From Paramacrobiotus metropolitanus (Eukaryota > Tardigrada > Eutardigrada > Parachela > Macrobiotidae): 64,000 nucleotides of DNA. Each line of letters begins with the position of its first letter. Within the stretch, counting starts at the first letter, position 1. Positions 15,750 to 36,568 of this stretch are shown piece after piece. Both the position numbers and the translations under genes were made by a program. The notes beneath the pieces were generated by a model, which searched no databases, was not told where the DNA came from, and saw nothing but the letters and a program-made list of their open reading frames with translations. Location of the stretch: positions 234,917-298,916 of the forward strand of contig NW_026570366.1 of assembly GCF_019649055.1 (NCBI RefSeq), read 5' to 3'.

Positions 15750-15755
15750 CTCGTA
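15750..15755. repeat. Target site duplication, left copy (CTCGTA)
   Basis: CTCGTA directly precedes the left terminus and recurs directly after the right terminus at 36563-36568. Six bp is the size known for Polinton integrase. Confidence 0.95.
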
Positions 15756-15901
15756 AGAAGATATAGCGCTAGCTTAGCGTCAGCTCCGAATCGGTCCGGT
15801 TTTCGACCGGTCTGCGGTTCGGCTCGTGATCGGTTCGGTTTTTAGCCGGTTTTTAATCGGTTGTTCCCCTTTCTTTGGTTTATTTTTCCCCACCCTCTTT
15901 T
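15756..15901 (+). repeat. Left terminal inverted repeat
   Basis: About 146 bp that match the reverse complement of 36408-36562 with a few substitutions and a short indel near the middle. It contains repeated CGGTTCGG/ACCGGT motifs and, at its inner end, the shared 3'-end motif of the IAP gene. Confidence 0.93.
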
Positions 15902-15903
15902 TT
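15863..15903 (-). terminator. Shared 3'-end motif, copy 1 (after the IAP gene)
   Basis: Read on the minus strand: an A-run, AGAGGGTGGGGAAAAA, an AATAAA hexamer and AAGAAAGGGG, about 40 bases beyond the IAP stop codon. Near-identical copies follow PolB (27144-27185) and the right-end gene (36408-36446) in the sense direction. AATAAA is a polyadenylation signal, and the G-rich tract would suit a downstream element. Function is inferred. Confidence 0.65.
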
Positions 15904-15944
15904 CTATGAACATGAATGAACATGCATGATACAGACAATAAAAA

Positions 15945-16712
15945 CTAACAGAAGAAAGCCCAGCACTTATGGAAAATGACACCCCGACAAATCGGACACA
16001 ACAGTAGCTTGCTTGAACATTTTGCACAGCAAACTAAATGACCACATGGTCTGAACATGATTTCCGAATCATTTTCATAGCAGACTTTACAGCGTAATTT
16101 CTCTTTGTGGTCTTCAGAAGTTGTAGGTGCTTGAGCTTTTCGTGTTAGTCCACAACAGGTTGTTTCGGCTTCTTGGCGTTTTTTACGAACATCGTTGATG
16201 AATGTTGAGCCCTTTGTTTGTACAAGATACGGACATTTCGGGTAAGTCCAAGCGTGCTCTTCCCACGGAACATCATCTTTGTCCCAAGCATTAAGTGCAC
16301 CACCACAGTGAAAGCAGCGTACACAGTCATCTCGGCCTTCATAATAAAAACCGGCTGCAGCCATATCTCTGGGTTGCTGGTGTTTGTTAGCAGGCCATTC
16401 AGCGTAAGTAGCAAAGCGTGTCTTATAGTCTTTCATTGCCGGTGAGTGCGGAATGTGTTTTCTTGATCCGGATTCCTCCATAGCCCTAACACAGTCTGGA
16501 CGTGCTAAACGGTGTCGGTAGTATGGTTTATACCGTGAGTTCACCCAGTCACCCATAATATAGCCACAGTACGCGCAGTGGATTTCGTCATGCTGCCCTT
16601 GATAAAAGAACCCTTGGCTTGCCAGTTCCTCAGGGGCAAGGGACTGATCCGGCCAGTTTTCAAAACTCCCGAAGCGATTGCTCATCTGTGTCATATCCAT
16701 TTTGGCTACCAA
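15945..16712 (-). CDS. IAP: Inhibitor of apoptosis protein, two BIR domains plus RING
   Basis: A 255-residue protein with the layout of baculovirus and insect IAPs. BIR1 covers roughly residues 12-80 (zinc ligands C46, C49, H67, C74). BIR2 covers 97-165 (C133, C136, H153, C160). A C-terminal C3HC4 RING starts at LRCKVC near residue 207 and contains FRPCGHLVC and CPICRG. BIRs bind caspases or IAP antagonists and the RING is a ubiquitin ligase, so the likely role is to delay death of the cell in which the element is active. A TATA box at 16740-16748 lies 28-36 bp upstream of the ATG. The gene runs outward, ending just inside the left TIR, which supplies its 3' signal. An origin from a host or viral IAP by capture is likely. 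No introns. Confidence 0.92.
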   Translation of the reverse strand: MVAKMDMTQMSNRFGSFENWPDQSLAPEELASQGFFYQGQHDEIHCAYCGYIMGDWVNSRYKPYYRHRLARPDCVRAMEESGSRKHIPHSPAMKDYKTRFATYAEWPANKHQQPRDMAAAGFYYEGRDDCVRCFHCGGALNAWDKDDVPWEEHAWTYPKCPYLVQTKGSTFINDVRKKRQEAETTCCGLTRKAQAPTTSEDHKEKLRCKVCYENDSEIMFRPCGHLVCCAKCSSKLLLCPICRGVIFHKCWAFFC

Positions 16713-22975: not shown

Positions 22976-22983
22976 TATAAAAG
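22976..22983 (+). promoter_or_regulatory. TATA box of the DNA polymerase gene
   Basis: TATAAAAG 51-58 bp before the ATG at 23034, giving a leader of about 25-30 nt. Confidence 0.65.
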
Positions 22984-23033
22984 CCGCGCGGCACGAGATT
23001 TTTCTTCATTTAAATCCTTCACGACTGGCGAAA

Positions 23034-26000
23034 ATGACTTATCAGTTATCTGCTTCTGATCATGCGGCTATTGCGGCCATACTTAGTGAGCCGTGGATGG
23101 ATGTTGATGATGAGCAGCAGCAGCAGCCGCAAGTTAATGATGCGTACCAGTTAACCGCTGAAGATCAAGCAGCTTTTGATCACATGCTTGCTAATCCCAA
23201 TGAGTTCAACGAACATGATGAACAGACTCTAGCAACGACTTTGCTGCATCTGGATCAGGTTGATCGGTTAAGCCCAGGATCTTTAGCTGCCGCTCTTGCT
23301 CTTGCGCAACTGGACGACTGGCAGTATGAAGATCCTCCAGCGCCGCAAGCTGGTGGAAATGCGGTCCGAGATGAATCGCTGCCCGATTTCTCAGGTCTGT
23401 TCCAATTGGTCAAAGAATCGGAACGCGTTTTCAAAACCTTCAACAGCACTGAACAGAAATACCGTGTCCAAATAGCCTCGCTACCGCGAATTTTTGCAAA
23501 AGAAGAAACCATGCTTATCATGCCAGAAATCTTGCGCGTCATAATGGATTTGTGCTTTAAAGAATTTGCCCCGACGGACCGTGTTGTTGTGGCTCTCAAA
23601 TCGGATGGGCTTGAAAGAGCGTTCTATTTAACCATGCGAAAACTTTCTGACTTTAGCATACCCGCTTTTATGCATCGTATTGAGCTTCTGAACTCCGGCC
23701 AGAAGTTGGTTATTGACGATTCTTTCACCATACGGATCTGGCGCTCTATTATGCCGGCTGGTGGATCCTGGTTTCTCAGGCATCAGCACGTTAAGCATGA
23801 CAGAAATCGTTTCAAGAAATCCATTGTAAGCGTCCGTGTAGAAAATAACCTGTGCTTGCCCGCCGCGTTGTTCCTGGGGAAATTTCGGCTAACGCATGAC
23901 CTTGAAGTTGCGCCGCATAAGAGTAAATGGAAAAACTATATTCGCGCTAACCGCAATCGGAACTTGGAAGCGGAGGCCACTAAGATAATGAATAACTGCG
24001 ATCTGCAGCCTGGCCATTACTGCGACCTTGATGCCCTAAGCGTGCTTCAGGAAAATGAATTTCCCGAGTTTCAAATTAAAGTTATATCGGCCAATCAAGG
24101 CGACATGATTATTGCACGGGTACCCGAGCGTAAAACCCATGATATGCAGGAGATTTTTTTGTTGCTGGACAATGAGCATTTTGACCTGGTCACAACCGCG
24201 ACAGGCTTTTACTGCTCACCCTACTTCTGCAATGATTGCGATCGACCGTATCATCATAAAGAACGTCATCGTTGCGAGGGGAAATGTAGGTCGTGCTACC
24301 GCAACAAGAGCGACTGTCTGGTGGACAATACAATCTCCTGCACTGAATGCAGCCGTCGGTTCCACAACCAACAGTGTTACGATATCCATAAGAAGAAAAG
24401 GAAAAATGGAAAGAATTATTGCGAGCAAATGTTCATCTGCCAGACATGCGGTGTTTTTGTGAATCTGTCCAGTCGTGGCAAAAACGTAACACACCAGTGC
24501 GGGGAAATTTATTGCAACACGTGCAATGGTTTTTTTCTCCAAGCTACGCATTTGTGCTACATAAAACCACTCAAGGCACCGCCACCATGGCAGCAAGAAG
24601 AAATGAAATACATTTTCTTCGATTACGAAACCTACAACGATCCGGTGAATGGTCACGTGCCCACATGCATCGTTGCGCAATATGCTGATGGTTCGGAAGT
24701 ACGTTTTCCGGAAGATGGTCAGCCGATGAATGCGGAAGTTGATGAGGCATTTGGGCGCTGGCTGTTTCAAGAAAAGCATCGGGGATTTACTATCGTAGCA
24801 CACAATTTTCGAGGCTATGATGGACATTTTGTCCTGAAGTACATGTTGGACAATGGTTTGAAAGGAGTGGAAGTCATCAAGCGTGGGACGCAGTTGTTGG
24901 AATTGCGGTACCGCAAACTGGGGATCCGGTCACGCGATACCCTCAACTTTCTGGCTTTGAAGTTGAGTCAGTTACCAAAAGCGGTTGGCTTGGAAATCGA
25001 GGTGCAGAAAGGCGACTTCCCACATCGATTTAATAAGCCTGAAAATTGGGATAAAACTGATTTGCCCTGGCCCGAGCCAGAACAGTACATGATTGATGGA
25101 ATGCGAAAAAAGCAAAAAGAAGAATTTCTAAAGTGGCACGCTGAAGCTAAAGCGGCCGCCAATGGGGTGTTCAATTTTCGCGAGCAGATGATGACATATT
25201 GCTCGAACGATGTTACGGTTTTGCGTGTGTGTGCGTTAAAGTTTATCAGCGATTACCAAGCTCTGACGTCGCTGAATCCAATGGAAAGTATGACCATGCC
25301 TTCGGCCTGCTACCGGTACTGGAGAATGTTCCACCTTCCCGAGAACAAAGTTGCCGCGTTATCCAGTCACGGACCGCACAGAAACCGACGAACTAGTATT
25401 CAAGCCACGCAATGGCTGGAATGGGAGAACATGAGCGCAAACGGCCGTATACGCCATGGTCGGAACGGCAAAGAAGTTAAAATTGGGCGATACTTTGTAG
25501 ACGGTTTTGACAAGGAAACACAAACCGTTTACGAGTATAACGGCTGCGTCTTCCATGGACATCCTTTCTGTACTGAAGAAAACGATGTTGTACCATACTC
25601 CAAAAAGAAAATGCGCGAAGTTTACGAAGAGTTCCAGGAACGCGAACGCTTCCTTGAAAGTCAGGGCTACACTGTGGAGGTGAAATGGAGCTGTGAGTGG
25701 CTTAAAGAACGACAAGATCCCGATATTGCCGCATTTCTGCTGAATATGAACATTCGTGAGCCAATGAATCCTCGTGACGCCTTCAAAGGAGGCAGAACGA
25801 ATGCCAGTCGTTTGTATTACCAAGTGAAGGATGACGAAGAAATTAGGCACTATGACGTTGTTAGCTTGTACCCATTCGTGAACAAGACCAAGGCATACCC
25901 GGTCGGCCATCCTGAAGTAATCGTATCCAATTTCAAGGATGCCAAAGATTATTTTGGACTGGTCTACTGCAAAGTAGCGGCTCCGGATCAATGCCTGTAT

Positions 26001-27143
26001 CCAGTCTTACCGGCCACGATAAACGGCAAACTCATGTTTGTTCTATGCAAAAAATGCGCGATGGAAAAAGCGGCGAACCGCTGTGCGCATACAGACGATG
26101 ATCGCTGTTTCGAAGGGGTTTGGGCGACACCCGAACTACATCATGCAATCGATGTGGGGTATCGTGTTGTGGAAATGTATGAAGTGTGGCACTGGACGCA
26201 TTCTGACACCAAGCTCTTTGCGGCATACATGGACAAGTTTTTAAAAGTGAAAATGGAAGCCAGTGGTTGGCCTGCGTGGTGCGATACCGATGAAAAGAAA
26301 GCCAAGTTTATTCAGACGGTTAAAGAACGCGAAGGCATTTCCTTGGATCCGGATGCTATGGTTTTTGATGCTGGAAAGAAGAGCACCACCAAAATTGTGG
26401 TGAACAGTCTTTGGGGTAAAACCGGTCAAAGTTGCGATATGAACTCAACGGAGTTTGTCTACGACCCCAAACGGTATTCTGATCTGTGTCGTTCAAAAGC
26501 TATTGAAATACATGATGTCTATGGCGTAAACCCAACGTGTCTGATGGTAACACACTCGAAAGTGGATGACTACAATGAAGGTAGCAACGGTACGAATGTT
26601 GTCATTGCCGCTTTCACCACCAGCCATGCGCGACTTATACTGTTATCCCTCATGGAAAAGTTGGGCGAGCGCCTCCTGTACTACGACACGGATTCCGTGA
26701 TATTCATTCACCGACCTGGCGACTGGCTTCCTGATACCGGCAGTATTCTTGGGGATTGGGATAACCAGCTAGAAGCTGGCGAGAATCACATCGTCAAATT
26801 TGTTTCCTGTGGTCCAAAAGTGTACAGCTACGAAACCGACACGGGGCGCATTGAGTTGAAAGTGAAAGGGATGATGCAGAACGGATTTACGGAAGATATT
26901 CTGGATTGGGACTCGGTCACGAAGGAGCTGACGCGGACTGGAAAAGCCTTGGATTTTAACCAGCTGAAGCGGTTACTGGATGGTGTGGATGGGCACGTGC
27001 AGGTTGTATATCCAGAATACATCAAACGAAATGGAAAAACCCAAGAAATTAATACTGTTCAGTTAGCTAAGAAATTGAAGCTTGTTTACGACAAGCGCAT
27101 CATGTTGGATGATTTTACAACGCTGCCTTTTGGCACGCGATAG
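23034..27143 (+). CDS. polB: Protein-primed family B DNA polymerase (Polinton PolB)
   Basis: A 1369-residue polymerase that replicates the element, expected to use a protein primer as in adenovirus. The N-terminus has two copies of a short motif (YQLSASDHAAI, YQLTAEDQAAF) and a Gln tract. Residues ~400-510 form a Cys/His-rich zinc-binding region with many CxxC pairs. The exonuclease motif I is FDYETY (D530). Polymerase motif A is YDVVSLYP (D941), motif B is VNSLWGKTG (N1124) and motif C is YYDTDSV (D1218, D1220), so all catalytic residues are present. Length and order match Polinton polymerases. The gene has no intron and is uninterrupted. A TATA box lies upstream and the shared 3'-end motif begins right after the stop codon. 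Confidence 0.97.
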   Translation: MTYQLSASDHAAIAAILSEPWMDVDDEQQQQPQVNDAYQLTAEDQAAFDHMLANPNEFNEHDEQTLATTLLHLDQVDRLSPGSLAAALALAQLDDWQYEDPPAPQAGGNAVRDESLPDFSGLFQLVKESERVFKTFNSTEQKYRVQIASLPRIFAKEETMLIMPEILRVIMDLCFKEFAPTDRVVVALKSDGLERAFYLTMRKLSDFSIPAFMHRIELLNSGQKLVIDDSFTIRIWRSIMPAGGSWFLRHQHVKHDRNRFKKSIVSVRVENNLCLPAALFLGKFRLTHDLEVAPHKSKWKNYIRANRNRNLEAEATKIMNNCDLQPGHYCDLDALSVLQENEFPEFQIKVISANQGDMIIARVPERKTHDMQEIFLLLDNEHFDLVTTATGFYCSPYFCNDCDRPYHHKERHRCEGKCRSCYRNKSDCLVDNTISCTECSRRFHNQQCYDIHKKKRKNGKNYCEQMFICQTCGVFVNLSSRGKNVTHQCGEIYCNTCNGFFLQATHLCYIKPLKAPPPWQQEEMKYIFFDYETYNDPVNGHVPTCIVAQYADGSEVRFPEDGQPMNAEVDEAFGRWLFQEKHRGFTIVAHNFRGYDGHFVLKYMLDNGLKGVEVIKRGTQLLELRYRKLGIRSRDTLNFLALKLSQLPKAVGLEIEVQKGDFPHRFNKPENWDKTDLPWPEPEQYMIDGMRKKQKEEFLKWHAEAKAAANGVFNFREQMMTYCSNDVTVLRVCALKFISDYQALTSLNPMESMTMPSACYRYWRMFHLPENKVAALSSHGPHRNRRTSIQATQWLEWENMSANGRIRHGRNGKEVKIGRYFVDGFDKETQTVYEYNGCVFHGHPFCTEENDVVPYSKKKMREVYEEFQERERFLESQGYTVEVKWSCEWLKERQDPDIAAFLLNMNIREPMNPRDAFKGGRTNASRLYYQVKDDEEIRHYDVVSLYPFVNKTKAYPVGHPEVIVSNFKDAKDYFGLVYCKVAAPDQCLYPVLPATINGKLMFVLCKKCAMEKAANRCAHTDDDRCFEGVWATPELHHAIDVGYRVVEMYEVWHWTHSDTKLFAAYMDKFLKVKMEASGWPAWCDTDEKKAKFIQTVKEREGISLDPDAMVFDAGKKSTTKIVVNSLWGKTGQSCDMNSTEFVYDPKRYSDLCRSKAIEIHDVYGVNPTCLMVTHSKVDDYNEGSNGTNVVIAAFTTSHARLILLSLMEKLGERLLYYDTDSVIFIHRPGDWLPDTGSILGDWDNQLEAGENHIVKFVSCGPKVYSYETDTGRIELKVKGMMQNGFTEDILDWDSVTKELTRTGKALDFNQLKRLLDGVDGHVQVVYPEYIKRNGKTQEINTVQLAKKLKLVYDKRIMLDDFTTLPFGTR

Positions 27144-27185
27144 AAAAAAGAGGGTGGGGAAAAATCAATAAAAGAAAGGGGAAAA
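27144..27185 (+). terminator. Shared 3'-end motif, copy 2 (after PolB)
   Basis: The same A-run, AGAGGGTGGGGAAAAA, then AATAAAAGAAAGGGG as in the TIR inner ends, beginning one base after the PolB stop codon. It sits between converging transcripts. In copies 1 and 3 the AATAAA lies a few bases earlier. Confidence 0.7.
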
Positions 27186-27186
27186 C

Positions 27187-27387
27187 CTAATCTGTTTGCG
27201 TCGCTTCGTCGCTCACCATCACATCAAGCACCTCTTTCGTAATTTTTCTTGATTCTTCCAACTGCGTACGATTGGTGGACTTGATAAAATAGGAAACAAT
27301 TTCTAAAGTATTGAAGACTACCAGCAGCATGGTGACCAGTACTGCAAAGAATACTGATGCTGCTTTTTTAGCTAACGGCTTAACCAT
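27187..27387 (-). CDS. Small single-pass membrane protein
   Basis: 66 residues: a short basic N-terminus, one transmembrane segment (VFFAVLVTMLLVVFNTL) and a polar tail. The start overlaps the protease stop by a few bases, so it is the last gene of the minus-strand structural block. Small membrane proteins occur at this kind of place in viral clusters; a role in virion assembly or release is a guess. Confidence 0.55.
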   Translation of the reverse strand: MVKPLAKKAASVFFAVLVTMLLVVFNTLEIVSYFIKSTNRTQLEESRKITKEVLDVMVSDEATQTD

Positions 27388-27880
27388 TTCTTATAAGGTC
27401 GCGTATAAATGTTGCGTCACGGACTACAGTCCTTAGTCGGAAGAACTTGTTGATGAATTTACATACAAATTTATCATTCACCCCTTTATGCTTAGTGAGA
27501 GCAGACATGACGTCTTTATACGAAAACCCGTAGCAACGTAATAAAACGAAAAACATACAATATTGACCACATACAGTACTATCAGAGTTTTGTCGCTCAG
27601 TATTCGACATTATAACAAAGTCATTGTCTATCCATTTTTCAATGTCATCTGAATAGTCACCGGGATTTTTTCCGTACGAATCAAAAACTTCTATCGTACC
27701 GGGTTTTGTACAATAAAATGCTACCCAGTGTTCACCCGCCGCACCTGACGGTTGAGTGTTAGATATGTATGCACCTGGAAATTCTTTTACTGGCAGTGTA
27801 TCACTGGCAAATACTCCGACAAAAATGTCGCGAACGTTAGGATCTTGTTTCAGCGCTGAATCTATTTGTAGGCTGTTCAT
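27380..27880 (-). CDS. pro: Adenain-like cysteine protease
   Basis: 166 residues matching the Polinton/adenovirus maturation protease (C5/C48-type fold). The catalytic triad is visible: H51 in GEHWVAFY, D67 in IEVFDSYG and C108 in CGQYC, with Q97 placed for the oxyanion hole. It should cleave capsid precursors during virion maturation. A likely substrate is the neighbouring 127-residue protein, which has an MKGG site. The start overlaps the stop of the major capsid gene by 4 bases. Confidence 0.92.
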   Translation of the reverse strand: MNSLQIDSALKQDPNVRDIFVGVFASDTLPVKEFPGAYISNTQPSGAAGEHWVAFYCTKPGTIEVFDSYGKNPGDYSDDIEKWIDNDFVIMSNTERQNSDSTVCGQYCMFFVLLRCYGFSYKDVMSALTKHKGVNDKFVCKFINKFFRLRTVVRDATFIRDLIRNG

Positions 27881-29223
27881 GGCGCAAAGTCGAAAAGTAC
27901 TTGGCGATTGTTGTTAATTTCGATAATGTTATCGAAGACCATCATAGCTACGCAAACTATACCTTCAGGTAGCGGTTTTGCAAATTTAACATTGATGTTT
28001 AAATTACCTTGCCTTATCAGCGACAGCGCTCCTCTGCCCGTATGACCACGAGTGAAGTCAAACCCAAAAATATTGAAACCACCTTTGTTAAATACGGACC
28101 TGTCAAACGGTAGTTCGCCATGACCTTCATGCAGCCGCTCTAGAGTATCTAACAACCCTTCATATCCCTCAATTGACGCACCGTTTTGGAAATCTAAGTT
28201 ATACCCTCGCGTAGGAAAAAGCTGTCCATCAATTTCAGCACTTAAGTTAGATATGTTGAAATGATGGAAATTGAACGGAGTTGACTTAAAATCGCCAACG
28301 AACGAGCGATTGGGTGACATTGCAAAGAACATAACCTTGGGTAACTGTCCAATAACAATATTCGCCCAGGATAGTTGCTGCTGGCCTGATTGCATTGTGG
28401 TCTGTCTTAAAGCAACCCGTTCGATGTGATATTTTGCATTAGTTGTGACTAGTTGCTTTGTCATGGCTGCTAAAAAGTCTGGAGAAGGTTCATACTTTCG
28501 AACTTTCAGCTTGGGGTTTCGAATAGCAAAAGCCTTTGGAGCCGCTACATCATTATCAGTAAGAAAACAAAGATTAGCCCTGTTTCGTATCAGTTTAATG
28601 CTCAACTCTACACCAGGAATTAGTGGTCGGTCTTGCTGGAACAAATCGCAGTGTAGTTTACCAGACAACTGCAACGGACGGAAAGTCTGCAACCATGTTC
28701 TTCGCGTTTCGGCACCCTTACTATGAAATGTTGTTGCCCCATTTATCTCATTCATGTATAACGGGTCTTTGTCAAGGTCAGTGTCCAACGCAAATCCACA
28801 CAGGCTCAACTGACTGTTCTGAGCCTGAACAGTGAAACCCAGAAGGGATTCAATGTACGCTCGAATGTGATACAAAGGACTGTTATCGGTTATGTTGCGA
28901 CCTCCCAATGAAACCGTAACTGATTGAAATAAACTATGCAAAATATTGTTAATTGGTGCAAGACAGTCTTTTTCTGTTGGAACAGTTCCAGCAGAATTAG
29001 TAACGTGTAAATCACATGAAAATCTAATGTCAGCTAAGCTGATAAGCTCGGTTTGACACGGTGAAATTGTAAATACAATATCGTTTGAATCGTCGGTTAC
29101 GGCTTGAGACGGCCCCAAGTCATAGTCATGTGTATTCCACCTTTCCGTTAGCGTAGCTGGAAGATAAAACAAGTGACTTTCCAACAGCATGGAGGGTTCT
29201 GAGCCAGCTTCAATAAGAGCCAT
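27877..29223 (-). CDS. MCP: Major capsid protein (double jelly-roll type)
   Basis: 448 residues in the capsid position of the Polinton block, between the protease and the cleavage-site protein. The segment PLYHIRAYIESLLGF matches the conserved region of Polinton capsid proteins, where an ETLL/ESLL motif follows a tyrosine-rich strand. The protein is rich in beta-prone segments, as expected for a double jelly roll forming hexon-like trimers. Length is in the usual range. No signal peptide or membrane segment. Confidence rests on context plus this motif. Confidence 0.85.
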   Translation of the reverse strand: MALIEAGSEPSMLLESHLFYLPATLTERWNTHDYDLGPSQAVTDDSNDIVFTISPCQTELISLADIRFSCDLHVTNSAGTVPTEKDCLAPINNILHSLFQSVTVSLGGRNITDNSPLYHIRAYIESLLGFTVQAQNSQLSLCGFALDTDLDKDPLYMNEINGATTFHSKGAETRRTWLQTFRPLQLSGKLHCDLFQQDRPLIPGVELSIKLIRNRANLCFLTDNDVAAPKAFAIRNPKLKVRKYEPSPDFLAAMTKQLVTTNAKYHIERVALRQTTMQSGQQQLSWANIVIGQLPKVMFFAMSPNRSFVGDFKSTPFNFHHFNISNLSAEIDGQLFPTRGYNLDFQNGASIEGYEGLLDTLERLHEGHGELPFDRSVFNKGGFNIFGFDFTRGHTGRGALSLIRQGNLNINVKFAKPLPEGIVCVAMMVFDNIIEINNNRQVLFDFAP

Positions 29224-29225
29224 CG

Positions 29226-29609
29226 TTACAGTTTGTCTTTTATAGCGTCTATTGCGCGTTGACGTTTCGTGGTTTTGATCATTCTCTTTCGACGACGACC
29301 CTTAATACCCGACCCCTGTTGTTGAGCCGTGTTGCGTAATTTCTCGCTAACACGCTCAACAGCTTTATCGATTACGGATTCCACAGCTTTGCTGGCCATT
29401 GTTTTCATGTGAGGTTGGGCCGTTGCAATTAAATTGTTTATATGCGGCGCAGCTTTACTGAACAAACCCTTTGCAAATCCAATCACACGTCCCCAGAAAC
29501 TACCACCTTTCATGGGTGCGCCACGATAATATGGCATACCGTACCCATGCTGTTTGGTAAAGATCTGGGTGTAGCGGTGCTCGTCAAATTTTAACTCCTG
29601 TAGAACCAT
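29226..29609 (-). CDS. Small basic virion protein with a protease-site motif
   Basis: 127 residues. An N-terminal segment (residues ~22-36, MPYYRGAPMKGGSFW) contains MKGG-S, which fits the adenain consensus (M/I/L)xGG-x. Next comes an amphipathic helix (VIGFAKGLFSKAAP), then a long helix and a strongly basic C-terminus (RRRKRM, KTTKRQR). This recalls adenovirus pVI or core proteins, which are cleaved on maturation and act on membranes or DNA. It lies directly between the minor and major capsid genes. Confidence 0.7.
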   Translation of the reverse strand: MVLQELKFDEHRYTQIFTKQHGYGMPYYRGAPMKGGSFWGRVIGFAKGLFSKAAPHINNLIATAQPHMKTMASKAVESVIDKAVERVSEKLRNTAQQQGSGIKGRRRKRMIKTTKRQRAIDAIKDKL

Positions 29610-29610
29610 T

Positions 29611-30354
29611 TTAATGCTTTTTTGGTCGAAAGTGTAATTTAATTACTGATGTACCTGGATGAAAGAGTACTTCTTTCCCTAAATCATCGCGCATCGCTAT
29701 TTCTATAGTTTGAAACGTATGGTAGGCTAGCGGCATATAATGCGGATTTTCAAAACGAATTACTGTCTCTCGAAATGAATTCGCTTGAGTCGATAAGGTG
29801 CGTAGTAAAGGCACCATTGAGTCGCCTACCAACCCATGTGTAATCACGTCACAATACACATGCACGAGACGATTATGCTGTCCCGGATATAACATATGAG
29901 ACAGAGCATCTCTGCTGTTATATGTGTACTGGTGTACTATACCTAGTGCGCGCGCGTATTCGGAGCCCGTAAAAGTTAAAGCGAGGCCCGGTGTGATGTT
30001 TAACTGAGCTGCTTGACCACTCACTATTATCTGGCCGTAGGTTTTCGAGTCCCTATCATCTACGTTTTCCCTCAGCAGTTTGTTAACCGTACGAATTAAA
30101 TGATTTTCATCCTCAAAAGCATGTAGATCGACGAATCTATGAATTCTAGACGGGAAACCGTCACGCGAGACAGCAATGGCTAATCCGGTATTAAACTTTA
30201 TCCGCATAGGCGGTAGAATAATTTCCGAAAGACCTACTTCCCACGCACCGTCTAAATCTATAGGTCTAGCGAGAAGCGTTGTAAATTTACCAGGGCAGTT
30301 TTCAGAGTATAACCCCTCTGAAGCCGAAGACGGCAATGTCATGTAAAAACTCAT
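29611..30354 (-). CDS. mCP: Minor capsid (penton-like) protein
   Basis: 247 residues from the chosen start MSFYMTLPSSAS; an ATG eight codons earlier reads into the integrase end and is less likely. The opening, with NCPGKFTTLLARPIDLDG and AWEVGLSEI, is the conserved N-terminal region of Polinton minor capsid proteins, which form the pentameric vertices with a single jelly roll. The start overlaps the integrase stop codon by 4 bases, as elsewhere in this block. Confidence 0.87.
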   Translation of the reverse strand: MSFYMTLPSSASEGLYSENCPGKFTTLLARPIDLDGAWEVGLSEIILPPMRIKFNTGLAIAVSRDGFPSRIHRFVDLHAFEDENHLIRTVNKLLRENVDDRDSKTYGQIIVSGQAAQLNITPGLALTFTGSEYARALGIVHQYTYNSRDALSHMLYPGQHNRLVHVYCDVITHGLVGDSMVPLLRTLSTQANSFRETVIRFENPHYMPLAYHTFQTIEIAMRDDLGKEVLFHPGTSVIKLHFRPKKH

Positions 30355-31421
30355 TTCAAATCTTCTTTGTTTTCCCAAGAGTCATAAGCAGGACCGTATC
30401 CATACCAACGTACTAAGTATTGTACTTTTCCTTTATGTTTCCTTTCCCTTAATATCCTAGATATCCTATGATATGGCTTTTCTGCCATCGTGACTTTAGA
30501 TAACTCTTCCGGATAAAACTTACCGTCTACAGGTTCGCCAGCTAAATCTTCGACCGTGTAAACGTAATGGCTCCCGCTTCGTGTAGTGTGGGTTATTTTA
30601 AAAATTTCTTCTGTGAAACGAGTCTCGTACCCTTTTTCAAATGTCTGTTTCTTTTTTGCCAAACGTACATGATCGCCAACAGAAAATGTTGGTTTTGGAG
30701 TTTTCATACCTTTTTGTTCATCAACCATCTTCTGGAGAATTTGCTCAGCTTCCTCAGGACCGACGTCTTTAGGGGCTACTCCTGTAGCCGAGTGTTTTGT
30801 AGAATTGTAAGCGGATAAAACCTTAGGAAGGATATCTATGAATCGGTATGTGTTGTTTTCGGTCATGAACACATACAACCGGTCTTCAATTGTACGATTT
30901 AGACGTTCAACCATCGCACATTTTACATCATCGTTTTTTGTTGTAAAAAATGTCACATTACATTCTTCAAAAAACTTACGCATGTCTTTACTAACAAATT
31001 CCTTACCATTATCGCTTTGAACGCGTAATGGAGGATAATCACTCTTGTATATTTTCAAAAGCGCTTCACGAATATCAGCAGGCCGTTTGGATTTAACCGG
31101 CTCAGCCCATGCATAACGAGAAAAGCAGTCGATACACATAAGAATATACTTAAACCCATCGTTATAACTAGCAAATTTTTGAAAATCCACAAGATCAATT
31201 TGATGTTGGTCACCCACATTAACGGAAATAATTTTTCGGCGTTTGAACTTAGACCGAAAAGGTTTGTGTTGTGTATATGCGTCTTTGGTTTCTAAGTAAG
31301 CTTTAACTTGCTTTCGTGTATATCCATGTTTCCTGGCTTCTTTGTACAAGCGGTCTATGCCACCTAAACTCCCTTGAGAAACAGGATTCAAATACAAATC
31401 ATCTAATGTGGGCTTCATCAT
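30351..31421 (-). CDS. int: Retroviral-type integrase with C-terminal chromodomain
   Basis: Catalyses insertion of the element DNA. The RVE core shows the DDE triad: D in QIDLVDF, D in VQSDNGKEF and E in AMVERLNR about 35 residues on. The C-terminus from YHRISRIL to SWENKEDL is a chromodomain with the aromatic WY...W pattern, which may direct integration to methylated histone tails. The start is set at the MMKPTLDD methionine (31421); earlier codons in frame lack an ATG. A canonical HHCC zinc finger is not obvious. The beginning overlaps the tail of the broken upstream gene. The 6-bp target duplication shows that integration was normal. Confidence 0.93.
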   Translation of the reverse strand: MMKPTLDDLYLNPVSQGSLGGIDRLYKEARKHGYTRKQVKAYLETKDAYTQHKPFRSKFKRRKIISVNVGDQHQIDLVDFQKFASYNDGFKYILMCIDCFSRYAWAEPVKSKRPADIREALLKIYKSDYPPLRVQSDNGKEFVSKDMRKFFEECNVTFFTTKNDDVKCAMVERLNRTIEDRLYVFMTENNTYRFIDILPKVLSAYNSTKHSATGVAPKDVGPEEAEQILQKMVDEQKGMKTPKPTFSVGDHVRLAKKKQTFEKGYETRFTEEIFKITHTTRSGSHYVYTVEDLAGEPVDGKFYPEELSKVTMAEKPYHRISRILRERKHKGKVQYLVRWYGYGPAYDSWENKEDLK

Positions 31422-32515
31422 GTGTAGGAGAGCCAGCCGCCTTTTGTATACCACCTTTGTGTCTTTTAGCGGGAGGTCCTGACGGTTTATTACGTTTTCT
31501 CAACTGAATTTTGTTCTGACCTGAACTTTCAGCTTTATTTGATTGTTCGAATGTTAAAGCCTTAAGCGGCGGTGCGTCGGTAATGGCTGCCTGCTCTTTC
31601 TCACTGGCTTCTATTGCTAATCTTTGAGAACCACTAGCAATTGCAGCCCTTTGCTTAGGTTTTGGTGTGGTTTTTGGAGCTTGTTAGAGGTTTTTGGCTT
31701 AATTACCACCGTCTTCGACCCTTCAATAGCAAGTTGCTGATCTTTGTCCTTTGCCGGAGCCGGTTTGAAGTTTTCGGTTTAACGACCAGCGCTTTTAACC
31801 CTTCAATAGCTAGTTGGTTACTTTCCAAAGCCGGAACAGATCCATTGTCAGGTACTTGATATTCTAACACACCATCAGCAGGAAATTCTACTATCGGAAC
31901 ACTAGGCGGAGTAGGAGCGTATTCTATAGCGGCATTTAAAGTGTTATCGGATTTCGGAATGCGTCTAACATGGACTTTTTTGACCAAAGGGGGTTTTTTC
32001 GGCTTCCGATAAACATGTTTGACTACCGGTTTGCTTGGAACAACTTGTATTTGCGGCTCACCAGGCACTTGTACATATTGTACAATTGGTTGTGATGGTA
32101 CCTCGACATACTTATATTCAACTAACGGAGGGGCTGTTGCTTGAGTACCCTGTTCATGAAATGTCGGAACAGCCTGCACAACTTGATGGGTTACATTTGG
32201 ACCCGCTTGACTATATTGATCTTTAAGAACACCTGTAGAATGAGCTTGTATACTTTTATCAATCATTATGGGTGATGTATTGGTAGCAGGAGCAGCAGAT
32301 TCAACTTGCACTGTTTCCAACAATGGAGTCGCGACTGGAGCGTTACCCGTATTGTTTAAACGCTGGTAATCAAAAGCAGCCTTCGCCATGAGCTGCTGTG
32401 TAATTTCATGACCAATGTCTTGGGCCTTTTTCCAAGCAGTCGGCGCGGGAACACCTTCCCGAGCATGCTTCTGTTTTAAAAACTCGGTTTCGGGAACTAA
32501 AACGTACGTCTTCAT
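31399..32515 (-). pseudogene. Polinton protein starting MKTYVLVPE, broken by frameshifts
   Basis: The reading frame from 32515 gives a protein starting MKTYVLVPETEF, a start typical of one of the structural-block proteins of Polintons. A Pro/Val/Gln-rich, repetitive middle follows (PKTS/PKPV repeats). The frame ends at 31703, but the sequence character continues in the other two frames down to a stop at 31399. There it is basic (RKRNKP, PAKRHK) and overlaps the integrase start. Two frame changes lie inside an imperfect direct repeat at about 31690-31810 that encodes LAIEG and KPKTS twice. Either the gene is decayed or the repeat is misassembled. Function unknown, probably virion associated. 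Confidence 0.6.
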
Positions 32516-32834
32516 TTTGCTAGAAAAGTGGAGACTAACGTTCCTAATACTGGAAGTAAAACGTTGAGAAATCCTCCTTTTTTGTTGCAATATTTTACGT
32601 TTCTTTGAACGGTCTGTACTGCGGTCAGCTAGACGCTTAATTGTTGAAGAATGTTTTCGAGCCCGAGCTAAATCAACTTTGCTAAGACCGGTGGGTTGCT
32701 TAACTAGGTTTAAGCAGGCTTCTTCGATTGCGCTTATTTGTTGTTTAGTTGCCAGCTGGAAAAAAGCTTCTTCTCTGACGTGGTGTCAGAAGCTTTAACG
32801 CTTCAATAAGTCGAAAAATATCTTCTGGTTTCAT
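32512..32834 (-). pseudogene. Small Polinton protein with hydrophobic tail, two frameshifts
   Basis: ATG at 32834 overlaps the ATPase stop codon. The frame opens with a helical segment (MKPEDIFRLIEALKLL) and soon hits a stop. The coding pattern continues in the next frame (ATKQQISAIEEACLNL, then basic SKKRK), then changes frame again at an A6 run near 32580. After that run it ends in a Gly/Leu-rich hydrophobic tail (GGFLNVLLPVLGTL) whose stop overlaps the next ATG. The length of 323 bases is two over a multiple of three, as expected for two one-base insertions. A basic segment with a GGFL hydrophobic end is a recurrent Polinton small-protein pattern. Confidence 0.6.
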
Positions 32835-33466
32835 TTTTCTACATATATTCGTCTATACTCAAACACGTGCGACTGAAGACGAACATTGTCTGGAGCTTCG
32901 GGTCTAAGATTTATCAGTAAATAACCAAAGGGTTCCTTTATAGCCTTTCGGTAGGCCTCCAGCATATGTGGCATACCTAACTGACGTGCAAGTGTTTTAA
33001 CTTGCTGAACATCGCGAACTGATTTAAAAATTACCAAGTACTGAGAATTCAGCGCAATATCACGCATGCTCCTTCCTTGTTTGTATAAATTTTGAGATAT
33101 AAAAATTACAGAAACATTTTTATGATGAACGTCGCGAGTGAAAATCGAGGAACACCTTGGCGTTCCAGCAATTTCTTCCATTAAATCATCTAAAACTAGC
33201 AGACTCGGGACGTCTTTGTCAAAAAAATTCTCATCTTCTACGATGGGATTAAGACCTTGGACAAGTTCAATATCTTTTCCAAAATCCTGGAAGGCATCTT
33301 GCCAAGTACCATAAGCATATACTATTCTAACAGGGGGTGGATTGAAACTCTCCGTAAGATTTCGCAAGAGCTTCATTGTAAAAGTCGATTTTCCTGACAT
33401 AGTTGGACCAGAAATATATATCGCGCAGGGAGTTTTAAAGCGGAAATCAAAACTCAGTTTTTCCAT
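32831..33466 (-). CDS. atp: Genome-packaging ATPase (A32/FtsK-HerA type)
   Basis: About 211 residues from the chosen start MEKLSFDFRF (33466); a longer in-frame start at 33538 is possible and would overlap the TBP stop. The Walker A motif GPTMSGKST follows the start closely, and the Walker B is LLVLDDLMEE. A later segment (VSVIFISQNLY) carries the usual sensor Gln/Asn. It pumps element DNA into the capsid. Length and motif order match other Polinton ATPases. Confidence 0.92.
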   Translation of the reverse strand: MEKLSFDFRFKTPCAIYISGPTMSGKSTFTMKLLRNLTESFNPPPVRIVYAYGTWQDAFQDFGKDIELVQGLNPIVEDENFFDKDVPSLLVLDDLMEEIAGTPRCSSIFTRDVHHKNVSVIFISQNLYKQGRSMRDIALNSQYLVIFKSVRDVQQVKTLARQLGMPHMLEAYRKAIKEPFGYLLINLRPEAPDNVRLQSHVFEYRRIYVEK

Positions 33467-33534: not shown

Positions 33535-34137
33535 TCAAATGGTGCTTTTGAAACGATCAGATTTTTCACTTTTCCACACCGTAGTGGTATACTTTTCAAG
33601 GAGGTTTTTAATCTGTTCAATTGTGCGTTGAATCTGCAACAGTGATCTCGCTCCAAGAACTACACACTTTCCAGTATGGAAAACGTTTACGGTAGTTTTC
33701 AATAACGGAAACCGCAATTTGATCGCTGGAAAAAGCTCAGGTTCATAGAAAAATGCGACACCCGTTGGCTTTTCTTTCAAAATCTGGCTATACAGCTTAT
33801 TTAAATTTATTATTTTACTGTAAGCATACGTACAGACTATATTTGCCACAAAGCGCTCCTTAATAGTCACGTCGATGCAGTTTACCCTTAACATTCTCAA
33901 ATACTGTTCTAATAGCCCATTTGATTCCTCTATGGACTTACCACCTATTACAATTACCTTACCATTCTGGAAGATCTGGCAGAATGTATGTGACTGGTCT
34001 ACAAGTCTGATGTTAACTGCGTTGAAATTTTTAACCTTGGTAGCATGTTCCCCGAAAACTTCTAAAACATGCTGCAGATCAACTTTCTCGTTGAACTGCA
34101 CCGCCAGAATAATGTTGTGGATATCCATGACTGAACG
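33535..34137 (-). CDS. TBP: TATA-binding protein (TBP), two-lobed
   Basis: About 200 residues covering both halves of the saddle-shaped TBP core and little else. Lobe 1 runs from MDIHNIILAVQF through GKVIVIGGKSIEES. Lobe 2 starts FVANIVCTYAY, contains YEPELFPAIKLRF (the TBP signature is YEPELFPGL) and ends in a FHTGKCVVLGARS strand plus helix. TBP places RNA polymerase II pre-initiation complexes on TATA boxes in the nucleus. The protein is strongly diverged from animal TBPs: both lobes keep the G-K-V/C-x-(I/V)-x-G strand but differ at many DNA-contact positions. The start is set at 34137 because a TATA box at 34167-34175 predicts transcription from about 34145; an upstream ATG at 34161 would be missed. 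It heads the minus-strand structural block. An archaeal- or giant-virus-type origin is conceivable. Confidence 0.85.
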   Translation of the reverse strand, partial: RSVMDIHNIILAVQFNEKVDLQHVLEVFGEHATKVKNFNAVNIRLVDQSHTFCQIFQNGKVIVIGGKSIEESNGLLEQYLRMLRVNCIDVTIKERFVANIVCTYAYSKIINLNKLYSQILKEKPTGVAFFYEPELFPAIKLRFPLLKTTVNVFHTGKCVVLGARSLLQIQRTIEQIKNLLEKYTTTVWKSEKSDRFKSTI

Positions 34138-34166
34138 CATTACTTGCAACAGTGTCAGCAAGAAGG

Positions 34167-34175
34167 CTTTATATA
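34167..34175 (-). promoter_or_regulatory. TATA box of the TBP gene
   Basis: TATATAAAG on the minus strand, 30-38 bp before the favoured start codon. The TBP gene may therefore be autoregulated. Confidence 0.6.
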
Positions 34176-34308
34176 CTTCACTGCTGAGACTGTCGCAAAT
34201 AGTGGCGTTTTTCAGCCTTTTTTTTTCATAACAAAAGGGACTAATAGGAAAAAAACAAGAATAACAACAGCAACAATTTTATAGTGTTACAAAACGTGAA
34301 AAGAGCGG

Positions 34309-34755
34309 TTAAACAATAAGAGATTGCGCTTTAAAGCTATCGTCCAAGATGCGAGCGACATCGATGAATCCCATGTACGGTAGCTGAACAGAGCGCCCGG
34401 GCTGAGAAAACCTGATCGTGCGCCCGTACTTTTCGTGCACCTTTAAAGTCAATTCCAGGCAAGCAGGGCCATCAAATTTCATTTTCTCCTGTTTGCCTTC
34501 CGATGCTGCGTTGTCCAGTGAATCTTTCAAATGTCCACTCTTCAGGATCTTTAGCAATTCAGTGATTTCATTGTATCCGAATCGGATTCCTTTATTCCAT
34601 GCTTTACGCAAGCCCTCAGCATCCGCATTTGCTTCGAACACAAGAAATGCCCGTACTTCTTTAGCATTCCAGAACAGGCTTACCACACTATTGACTTTGT
34701 ACACAGTGTAGCCATCATGATCACCAACAACATCTAAAATGCGTGCGAAATCCAT
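34309..34755 (-). CDS. 148-residue orphan protein
   Basis: A compact soluble protein with no recognised family. Residues 2-7 (DFARIL) echo a C-terminal DVARIL near residue 131, so the ends may be related segments. In between are a Trp-containing strand region, a helical FGYNEITELLKILK stretch and a basic KYGRTIRF strand. Its position beside the TBP gene and its own TATA box (34830-34838) suggest an early or regulatory protein; a nucleic-acid-binding role is possible but unproven. No frame damage. Confidence 0.6.
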   Translation of the reverse strand: MDFARILDVVGDHDGYTVYKVNSVVSLFWNAKEVRAFLVFEANADAEGLRKAWNKGIRFGYNEITELLKILKSGHLKDSLDNAASEGKQEKMKFDGPACLELTLKVHEKYGRTIRFSQPGRSVQLPYMGFIDVARILDDSFKAQSLIV

Positions 34756-34829: not shown

Positions 34830-34838
34830 CTTTTATAC
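34830..34838 (-). promoter_or_regulatory. TATA box of the 148-residue gene
   Basis: GTATAAAAG on the minus strand, about 80 bp before the ATG. Confidence 0.55.
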
Positions 34839-35153: not shown

Positions 35154-36377
35154 ATGGAGAAGGACCAATTTCGTGGTTGCTTAGTTGGGGGTTTGCTGGG
35201 GGAATGCTTGTGCGTTCCCTTGAAGGCGTATCATGGTATTGTTCACAAGGTTGCGCAGTTGTTCGTTGATACACGAGACTACCGCTCTTATCGTGAGAAG
35301 ACTGTCTTAACAAACGCGCTGGGTAATGCATTGCTGAATGATGGGGGTTATGATGCAGTGTCTGCCGCTCGAGCGTGCGTTGAAGCTTATTACAGCGCAC
35401 ATCCCGTCATACGTTCGGCTTTCGGGAAGCTTAAGGATATAATACATCACTGGAAGTGGAGCAATTACAACACCTTTGACACATTACCGAAAAACATTGT
35501 ACCGAAAACGTTCCTCAAGGGATACGGCCCAGCTGCGTGGATTTCAGCGTACCCACTATACTTTAGACATCAGACAGAGCTGATGATCCGCAACGTTCGT
35601 AGCGTTGCCGAACTCACACATCCCGCAATGGAAGCTTACGGAGCATGTGAACTTCAAGCCTACGCTATTGCAGTAGCATTACAATACCCCTACTTTACTC
35701 CAGAACAGTTTCTGGACATGCTAATCACGCTGTGTGACTCCGGCATTAACCTTCAGCTGTATCAACCAAAACTAGTACATTTAAAAACACTGCTGTCTGA
35801 AGAAACGAGTGTTGTGGTGAAAGCCCTTGGTAATGATTCCGCGGGACTGGAAGCTGTACCTATGGCTATTTACTGCGTACTAAAAGGAACCAGTCTAGCG
35901 CCTGAAAATGCTTTTGAAGCGACCATGGCGCTTACAATACGGGTTGGTGGATGCACTGACGGAATTGCAACCTTGGCGGGTGCTATTGCCGGAGCTTGGC
36001 ACGGTCTCAAAAGTATACCGCAGGCATGGCTCCAACTGTGTGATGGATACAAGAACAGCATTATGCTCGCCGACAAACTTGCCGAACACGCCAGCAACAC
36101 CCTAACCAATCGCGAAATATATGATTTCGGCAATTACGACACTTTAGAGTCACGATTGGAATCGTTCAAAGGATGGCCACATCTAAAACCCTCACCCATG
36201 GAACTAGCTGGAGATGGATTTTTTCATTTTGGCACACAAGATTGTGTTCAGTGTTATTACTGCAACTGTAAACTTAGAGATTTTGAGCCTCTCTCTGATC
36301 CCCGTTGGGATCATTTATGTAAGAAGCACAACTGTCCTGCCTCCAATGGTCCTGATAATTTATATTTTCACTTGTAA
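35154..36377 (+). CDS. ADP-ribosylglycohydrolase-like domain fused to a BIR domain
   Basis: 407 residues. Residues ~5-310 resemble the all-helical DraG/ARH fold that removes ADP-ribose from proteins: GCLVGGLLGE at the start, GNDSAGLEAVPMA in the middle and GGCTDGIATLAGAIAGA near residue 265. Metal ligands of active ARH enzymes are lost. The usual TDDT is REKT (residues 47-50), and GGDTDTIA has become GGCTDGIA (C267, D269, G270), so it is probably a non-catalytic ADP-ribose binder. Residues ~328-400 form one BIR domain starting RLESFKGWP with zinc ligands C367, C370, H387 and C394 in canonical spacing. I know no such fusion. The gene points outward, ending 31 bases before the right TIR, mirroring the IAP at the other end. 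A role in countering host death or ADP-ribose signalling is inferred. Confidence 0.8.
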   Translation: MEKDQFRGCLVGGLLGECLCVPLKAYHGIVHKVAQLFVDTRDYRSYREKTVLTNALGNALLNDGGYDAVSAARACVEAYYSAHPVIRSAFGKLKDIIHHWKWSNYNTFDTLPKNIVPKTFLKGYGPAAWISAYPLYFRHQTELMIRNVRSVAELTHPAMEAYGACELQAYAIAVALQYPYFTPEQFLDMLITLCDSGINLQLYQPKLVHLKTLLSEETSVVVKALGNDSAGLEAVPMAIYCVLKGTSLAPENAFEATMALTIRVGGCTDGIATLAGAIAGAWHGLKSIPQAWLQLCDGYKNSIMLADKLAEHASNTLTNREIYDFGNYDTLESRLESFKGWPHLKPSPMELAGDGFFHFGTQDCVQCYYCNCKLRDFEPLSDPRWDHLCKKHNCPASNGPDNLYFHL

Positions 36378-36407
36378 ATACCATAAAATAAAATGTCATG
36401 AATAAAT

Positions 36408-36446
36408 AAAAGAGGGTGGGGAAAAATAAACCAAAGAAAGGGGACA
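36408..36446 (+). terminator. Shared 3'-end motif, copy 3 (after the ADPRH-BIR gene)
   Basis: AAAAGAGGGTGGGGAAAAA, then AATAAA and AAAGAAAGGGG, in the sense direction 31 bases after the stop codon; it forms the inner end of the right TIR. Confidence 0.65.
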
Positions 36447-36562
36447 ATCGGCTCCAGTCCGGTTCAAACCGGCTGAAAACCGAACCGATCACGAGCCGAA
36501 CCGCGGACCGGTCGAAAACCGGACCGATTCGGAGCTGACGCTAAACTAGCGCTATATCTTCT
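36408..36562 (-). repeat. Right terminal inverted repeat
   Basis: About 155 bp, reverse complement of 15756-15901 with scattered substitutions and a ~9-bp length difference; the outer 90 bp are nearly identical. Confidence 0.93.
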
Positions 36563-36568
36563 CTCGTA
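36563..36568. repeat. Target site duplication, right copy (CTCGTA)
   Basis: Exact direct repeat of 15750-15755, immediately outside the right TIR. Confidence 0.95.

Follow-up and report, generated by a model that had tools for sequence, protein, structure and literature searches.

Polintons, or Mavericks, are usually pictured as wholly reliant on host transcription. Animal Polintons and adintoviruses have a family B DNA polymerase (PolB), a retroviral-type (rve) integrase, a protease, terminal inverted repeats and a 6-bp duplication, and all of these are shared by the element described here, an insertion in the genome of the tardigrade Paramacrobiotus metropolitanus that was analysed within a 64-kb stretch of DNA (the window; coordinates are positions within it). 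This element carries a gene for a TATA-binding protein (TBP). The available main-text portions of two papers on animal Polintons and adintoviruses do not mention TBP (PMC11071308, PMC11071296), and no report of a Polinton/Maverick TBP was found in the mostly open-access literature searched, including the available portions of PMC10675990, PMC10132985 and PMC7786948 as well as tardigrade genome and Polinton literature. The remark of a first-pass annotation, made from the sequence alone, that no Polinton TBP is established agrees with this search.

Virus-encoded TBPs are known from giant viruses (PMC7221094, PMC11410667) and mirusviruses (PMC10132985), according to the accessible portions of these papers, and also from archaeal viruses. 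Mirusviruses, herpes-related large protist viruses predicted to reproduce in nuclei, carry a TBP in 59% of genomes (PMC10132985) and are likened to the element by the presence of TBP alone. Among the Nucleocytoviricota, TBPs such as those of Heterosigma akashiwo virus 01 and the B263R family gave the best viral structure-library matches to the window TBP, with 22% identity at the best rank. In the accessible part of PMC7221094, these viral TBPs are mostly paired with a viral TFIIB-like protein, which almost all TBP-bearing viruses also encode, whereas none was found for the element. ORF24 of Kaposi's sarcoma-associated herpesvirus, outlined in the source portions available as a TBP mimic that recruits host RNA polymerase II (Pol II) for late genes, is comparable by description and not by sequence or structure. 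Cellular TBPs (PF00352) have the saddle fold, the intercalating aromatics and the stirrup glutamates in common with the element TBP; the latter differs in being encoded by a multi-copy mobile element and in sharing 27% identity with the core of the host TBP. The window thus holds a TBP of the virus-encoded kind, in a class of elements from which no TBP was found described, and no TFIIB partner was found with it.

The TBP gene is located on the minus strand at 33535–34128 and encodes 197 aa. A search with PF00352 gave an E-value of 4.1e-26 (91 bits; cut-off 22.9) with two stretches over threshold, revealing both lobes and bearing out the two TBP repeats claimed in the first-pass annotation; the YEPELFP motif and the paired GK strands that it had pointed out are present as well. 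TBP chains of the PDB matched residues 9–192 at about 1e-10. The AlphaFold model showed the saddle fold (pLDDT 94.4, pTM 0.85), which was the outcome on which the proposed structure-prediction check had depended, and ranks 1–44 of a Foldseek search with this model were TBP chains without exception. The gene was filed as TBP because of profile and fold. The protein carries F35, F53, F133 and F150 as intercalating aromatics, N5 and N96 as DNA-contact asparagines, and E129 and E131 as the acidic pair of the C-lobe, positions which we take to correspond to those of cellular TBP numbering; the TFIIB-contact glutamates are likewise presumed to be those of YEPELF. The open reading frame (ORF) originally given as 33535–34161 exists on the minus strand, but its outer end at 34161 is a TTG codon, and the ATG at 34128 is favoured as start. 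This ATG is present in 18 of the 18 group I loci inspected, and L022 and L023 lack the alternative ATG at 34140. An in-frame upstream peptide was considered as an N-terminal extension of the TBP and rejected, since the loop of the upstream stem-loop differs in length by 1 nt from copy to copy, which disrupts the reading frame. Profile, fold, gene context, copy number and selection together support the identification of the gene as a TBP carried by a Polinton.

The element itself is an intact Polinton, as had been claimed. The entire insertion spans 15756–36562 (20,807 bp), as delimited by its terminal inverted repeats, flanks, target duplication and right boundary. The left repeat (15756–15907, plus strand) pairs with the right repeat (36402–36562, minus strand) over a 97-nt outer arm (97% complementary) and a 43-nt inner arm (95%), and direct copies of the 6-bp target-site duplication CTCGTA flank the repeats at 15750–15755 (left) and 36563–36568 (right). 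Position 36562 is the end of similarity to the copies L017, L018 and L020; for L019 the similarity ends at 36444. The Polinton assignment was based on the repeats and the duplication together with PolB (23034–27143, plus strand, 1369 aa; Pfam DNA_pol_B_2 7.5e-45, of the protein-primed type by family) and a retroviral-type integrase with chromodomain (30351–31454, minus strand; Pfam rve 9.9e-14, Chromo 2e-9). The inner part of the terminal repeat recurs inside the element at 27140–27183, immediately behind the stop codon of PolB. The TBP gene is flanked by the probable packaging ATPase (32831–33466, minus strand, ATG at 33466; weak Pox_A32 match of 0.0069, below the cut-off; kept near TBP) and p148, a 148-aa gene adjoining TBP in the lineage of the window (34309–34755, minus strand). 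Its placement between ATPase and capsid-side genes in the first-pass annotation was therefore incorrect, the capsid-side genes lying beyond the ATPase. For p148, neither Pfam matches nor homologues were found, and a by-eye likeness to a tandem PC4 was discarded after hhalign against the PC4-containing group had returned a probability of 0.5%.

At least 152 matches to the window TBP were obtained from the genome, and a genome search with PF00352 yielded 150 scored matches from 493 candidates. Merging 275 rows from three listings, five of them from the PF00352 listing, and omitting repeat rows and the host TBP row gave at least 228 TBP loci, gene pieces counted. Among the matches listed, a TBP was found within 10 kb of 86 of the 92 loci of the 448-aa probable capsid gene (82 within 7 kb, 88 within 15 kb), compared to about 2.7% by chance, the 92 loci being derived from 99 rows with pieces included. 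Further Polinton genes were present beside TBP in 20 of 20 loci read, which were chosen by hand, and not randomly, so as to represent all levels of identity among the 152 matches (TBP identity 22–99%). TBP distances correlated with those of the ATPase (r 0.88) and the integrase (r 0.86) over 13 loci each, and with those of p148 (r 0.98, 8 loci) and the minor capsid gene (r 0.97, 12 loci), none of 2000 permutations being as high for any of these four; the values for PolB and the protease were r 0.97 (6 loci, 6/2000) and r 0.99 (5 loci, 52/2000), and the comparison with the 448-aa capsid gene gave no result from 2 loci. The ratio of nonsynonymous to synonymous substitution rates (dN/dS) was 0.03–0.31 in the 11 of 14 pairs with unsaturated synonymous rate dS (saturated in three pairs, above 2 in two more; the L028 slice ends in a partial codon). 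The element TBP is under purifying selection, and the locus counts, the correlations of gene distances and the dN/dS values imply that it is a long-kept, selected component of the element.

The surfaces by which a TBP contacts DNA and TFIIB were compared across relatives. In the 18 tardigrade element TBPs, the four intercalating-Phe positions hold an aromatic residue in 71 of 72 cases. The stirrup glutamate equated with C.L3.4 is kept in 17/18 tardigrade and 64/66 environmental sequences (81/84), and that equated with C.L3.2 in 12/18 and 38/66, respectively; the window TBP retains both. The C-lobe acidic pair contacts TFIIB, and C.L3.2 is conserved in about 40% of viral TBPs, as stated in the accessible part of PMC7221094. 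A search for an element-encoded TFIIB with PF00382 produced six matches at three loci, and none of the contigs concerned carries any TBP locus from the merged set. With one stirrup glutamate nearly always kept and no element TFIIB found, the element TBPs look built for host TFIIB, and the element would continue to depend on the TFIIB and Pol II of the host.

Some members of the second branch have a gene for the cofactor PC4 in addition to TBP: nine of ten PC4 matches were found 1.2–1.9 kb from a TBP locus, the tenth being a host-like gene. PC4 genes beside TBP are located at L041:1123-2055 and L043:1126-2205 (above the Pfam cut-off) and at L034:2873-3826 and L035:3214-4113 (below it). In another branch, the TBPs at L027:4202-5281 and L029:3983-5284 are extended at the C-terminus to 360 and 434 aa in total; these long tails are rich in acidic and aromatic residues and, by eye, resemble activation domains.

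Three TATA-type boxes were located in the window: TATAAAAGC at 22976–22984 (plus strand), 58 nt upstream of the PolB ATG; TATATAAAG at 34167–34175 (minus strand), 47 nt upstream of the TBP ATG; and TATAAAAG at 34830–34837 (minus strand), 82 nt upstream of the p148 ATG. Over 11 loci with placeable starts, TATAWAR was found at −110 to −26 in 10 of 15 PolB, p148 and TBP starts vs. 0 of 38 ATPase, p295, integrase, capsid and protease starts, the background being 98 in 2400 windows of 80 nt. This two-class promoter layout fits an early/late switch. In the second branch, a conserved ORF overlaps the TBP start (L034:4334-4834, L035:4369-4869, L030:5230-5685) and no upstream TATA box was seen; the L030 copy of this ORF had no Pfam match.

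Directly before the TBP ATG, a stem-loop or palindrome was recognised at 34143–34195 (minus strand) from pairing, covariation and folding, with the TATATAAAG box in its loop. Pairing is kept in 92 of 93 cells across eight copies, seven of them distinct. The covariation score and the percentage paired were each reached by 0 of 500 shuffles, while pairs with two-sided changes numbered six vs. a shuffle mean of 4.1 (23/500 as high) and pair types ten vs. 10.1 (357/500 as high), so that two of the five shuffle measures are unremarkable, and the structure was derived from the same related sequences. Folded as DNA, the window stem-loop is 5.1 standard deviations better than shuffles (z −5.1). A covariance model detected a single stem-loop upstream of TBP in 15 of 31 sources, eight of the 15 being in the model, and its matches recur there on the other strand, as expected of a palindrome; in the branch of the window, the stem-loop occurs once per element. 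Rfam matched nothing within 15700–36600. Eight of the nine non-Watson-Crick cells are G-U, which favours an RNA role; we lean towards a palindrome acting as RNA, the alternative being a DNA palindrome around the TATA box.

Taken together, we assign a probability of roughly 70% to the reading that the gene encodes a bona fide TBP of a tardigrade Polinton/Maverick, serving as the core-promoter factor of the element itself. To judge from its residues, the protein most likely would nucleate the assembly of Pol II and host TFIIB on the genes of the element, and its action may be independent of host TBP, given that the DNA-contact aromatics and a TFIIB-contact glutamate are kept. The TBP gene would be expressed early from its own TATA promoter, and its product would bind TATA-like DNA, either at the early TATA boxes of the element or at the later ATPase-to-protease promoters. 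Capture of host TFIIB and Pol II would follow and would lessen the reliance of element transcription on host TBP and the factors regulating it, and in one branch the PC4-type cofactor gene would participate.

Several observations weigh against this role as core-promoter factor. C.L3.2 is lost in 6/18 tardigrade and 28/66 environmental sequences, so that binding of host TFIIB may be weak in some lineages, and a TFIIB too diverged for the PF00382 model would escape the search. All five starts without TATAWAR belong to TBP genes in the L030-L036/L015 branch, no TATA box stands upstream of the window's ADPRH-BIR gene, and one TATAAAAG is found 21 nt upstream of the 448-aa gene, where it falls within the neighbouring upstream ORF and beyond the range tested. 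A common late-promoter motif was not found, the best six-mer having a P of 2e-4 among 1521 and the best seven-mer of 6e-5 among 1904, neither of which held up. Six of the 92 loci of the 448-aa gene have no TBP within 10 kb among the matches listed, which implies that the TBP gene may not be strictly required. A wider scenario, in which an old clade of animal-associated Polintons has semi-autonomous preinitiation, is tentative and rather doubtful as a whole: there, with no TFIIB encoded by the element, its TBP would connect to the TFIIB and Pol II of the host, aided by PC4 or acidic tails depending on the branch, would drive a switch from TATA-bearing early genes to TATA-less virion genes, and would have its output controlled by the stem-loop around the TATA box.

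The retained DNA- and TFIIB-contact residues would suit a decoy or competitor that sits on TATA boxes or TFIIB of the host and thereby dampens or redirects host transcription, and the IAP-type genes of the element look aimed at host responses. We regard such a function as unlikely, because the TATA boxes on the PolB, p148 and TBP genes of the element fit use on its own genes, as does the company of PC4, a cofactor of the same pathway, in other lineages. About equally improbable is another task on DNA, such as bending for replication, integration or packaging. TBP folds generally bind and bend DNA, and in the window, as well as in loci such as L017-L023, L027 and L029, TBP immediately precedes the ATPase with both genes on one strand, an arrangement that would accord with packaging. 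However, the ATPase is on the opposite strand in L030-L033, no ATPase match was obtained in the 9.9-kb loci L034-L036, and the second stirrup glutamate, kept in nearly all sequences, would not be needed for packaging.

That a host TBP gene was recently captured or inserted into, or that a host paralogue came to lie inside a transposon by chance, is very improbable, even though one relative, P0070, is annotated at NCBI as a P. metropolitanus TBP-like protein. The ordinary TBP of the host is a separate gene (G000:C4:406165-406662) with lobes scoring 115 and 97 bits, and is very close to human TBP (294 bits across 156 residues). The N-lobe stretch tested has a net charge of −1 in the window TBP and +3 in the host protein, and the charge ranges from −3 to +5 across TBPs of other elements. 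In a tree of 99 of 142 rows, calculated by a quick method without bootstrap and leaving aside short rows and some of the weaker hits, 63 environmental sequences joined the 18 element TBPs of the tardigrade in one group (SH-aLRT 94) outside the host, oomycete and archaeal TBPs, so that the phylogeny proposed as a check also separated the element proteins from those of the host. The presence of other Polinton genes beside TBP in every one of the chosen loci likewise speaks against a host gene.

A profile search returned 166 related proteins, the majority of the best 120 of these 166 being environmental. The group of element and environmental TBPs splits into two large subgroups, in each of which tardigrade and environmental rows are mixed. 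We infer that the TBP family is older than its spread in the tardigrade host. The environmental TBPs, known as protein sequences, may also be of Polinton origin. In IMG/VR, single-protein queries, which reach close relatives only, gave no relatives of five TBPs, the ATPase or the 448-aa protein; among phage records, three archaeal-virus records matched the L030 TBP. P0070, located at L038 on G000:C112, is in fact an element TBP: its first 110 and last 16 residues read exactly at L038, the last 16 in another frame, consistent with a stretch treated as an intron in the public annotation. A nematode as host was considered and dismissed, the SL1 pattern being absent and P0070 pointing to P. metropolitanus.

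The remaining genes of the window element complete its inventory. The cysteine protease of the adenovirus-endoprotease type (27380–27880, minus strand) had no Pfam match above cut-off itself and was assigned via its relative L035:2617-3126, which is 42% identical and matches Peptidase_C5 above cut-off (8.6e-5). The 448-aa protein (27877–29223, minus strand), which from its position and conservation we take to be the major capsid protein, had no Pfam or PDB match, and its single-sequence fold (pLDDT 32) gave no usable model for a double jelly roll. A small basic protein of 127 aa (29226–29609, minus strand), presumably a virion component, and a protein which we assume to be the minor capsid protein (29611–30354, minus strand; no Pfam match) are both kept in most of the 20 loci read. 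The ATPase and capsid genes are accordingly designated as probable. An IAP-like protein with two BIR domains and a RING finger is encoded at 15945–16712 (minus strand; Pfam BIR 7.6e-36 over two stretches, RING 7.7e-12), and an ADP-ribosylglycohydrolase (ADPRH) fused to a BIR domain at 35154–36377 (plus strand; Pfam 4.1e-29 and 2.5e-13). These two BIR genes are perhaps directed at host cell death or ADP-ribosylation responses.

For the annotation of tardigrade genomes, the case of P0070 means that at least one 'TBP-like' gene really belongs to an element. If the proposed role is true, a natural TBP obliged to work with host TFIIB while diverging elsewhere would make it possible to test directly which surfaces a TBP requires. 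The many TBP-bearing elements of this genome suggest that such elements supply some of the machinery for their own transcription, and a conserved general transcription factor in many copies, with relatives in environmental samples, would place Polintons with giant viruses and mirusviruses as eukaryotic mobile DNA carrying core transcription machinery.
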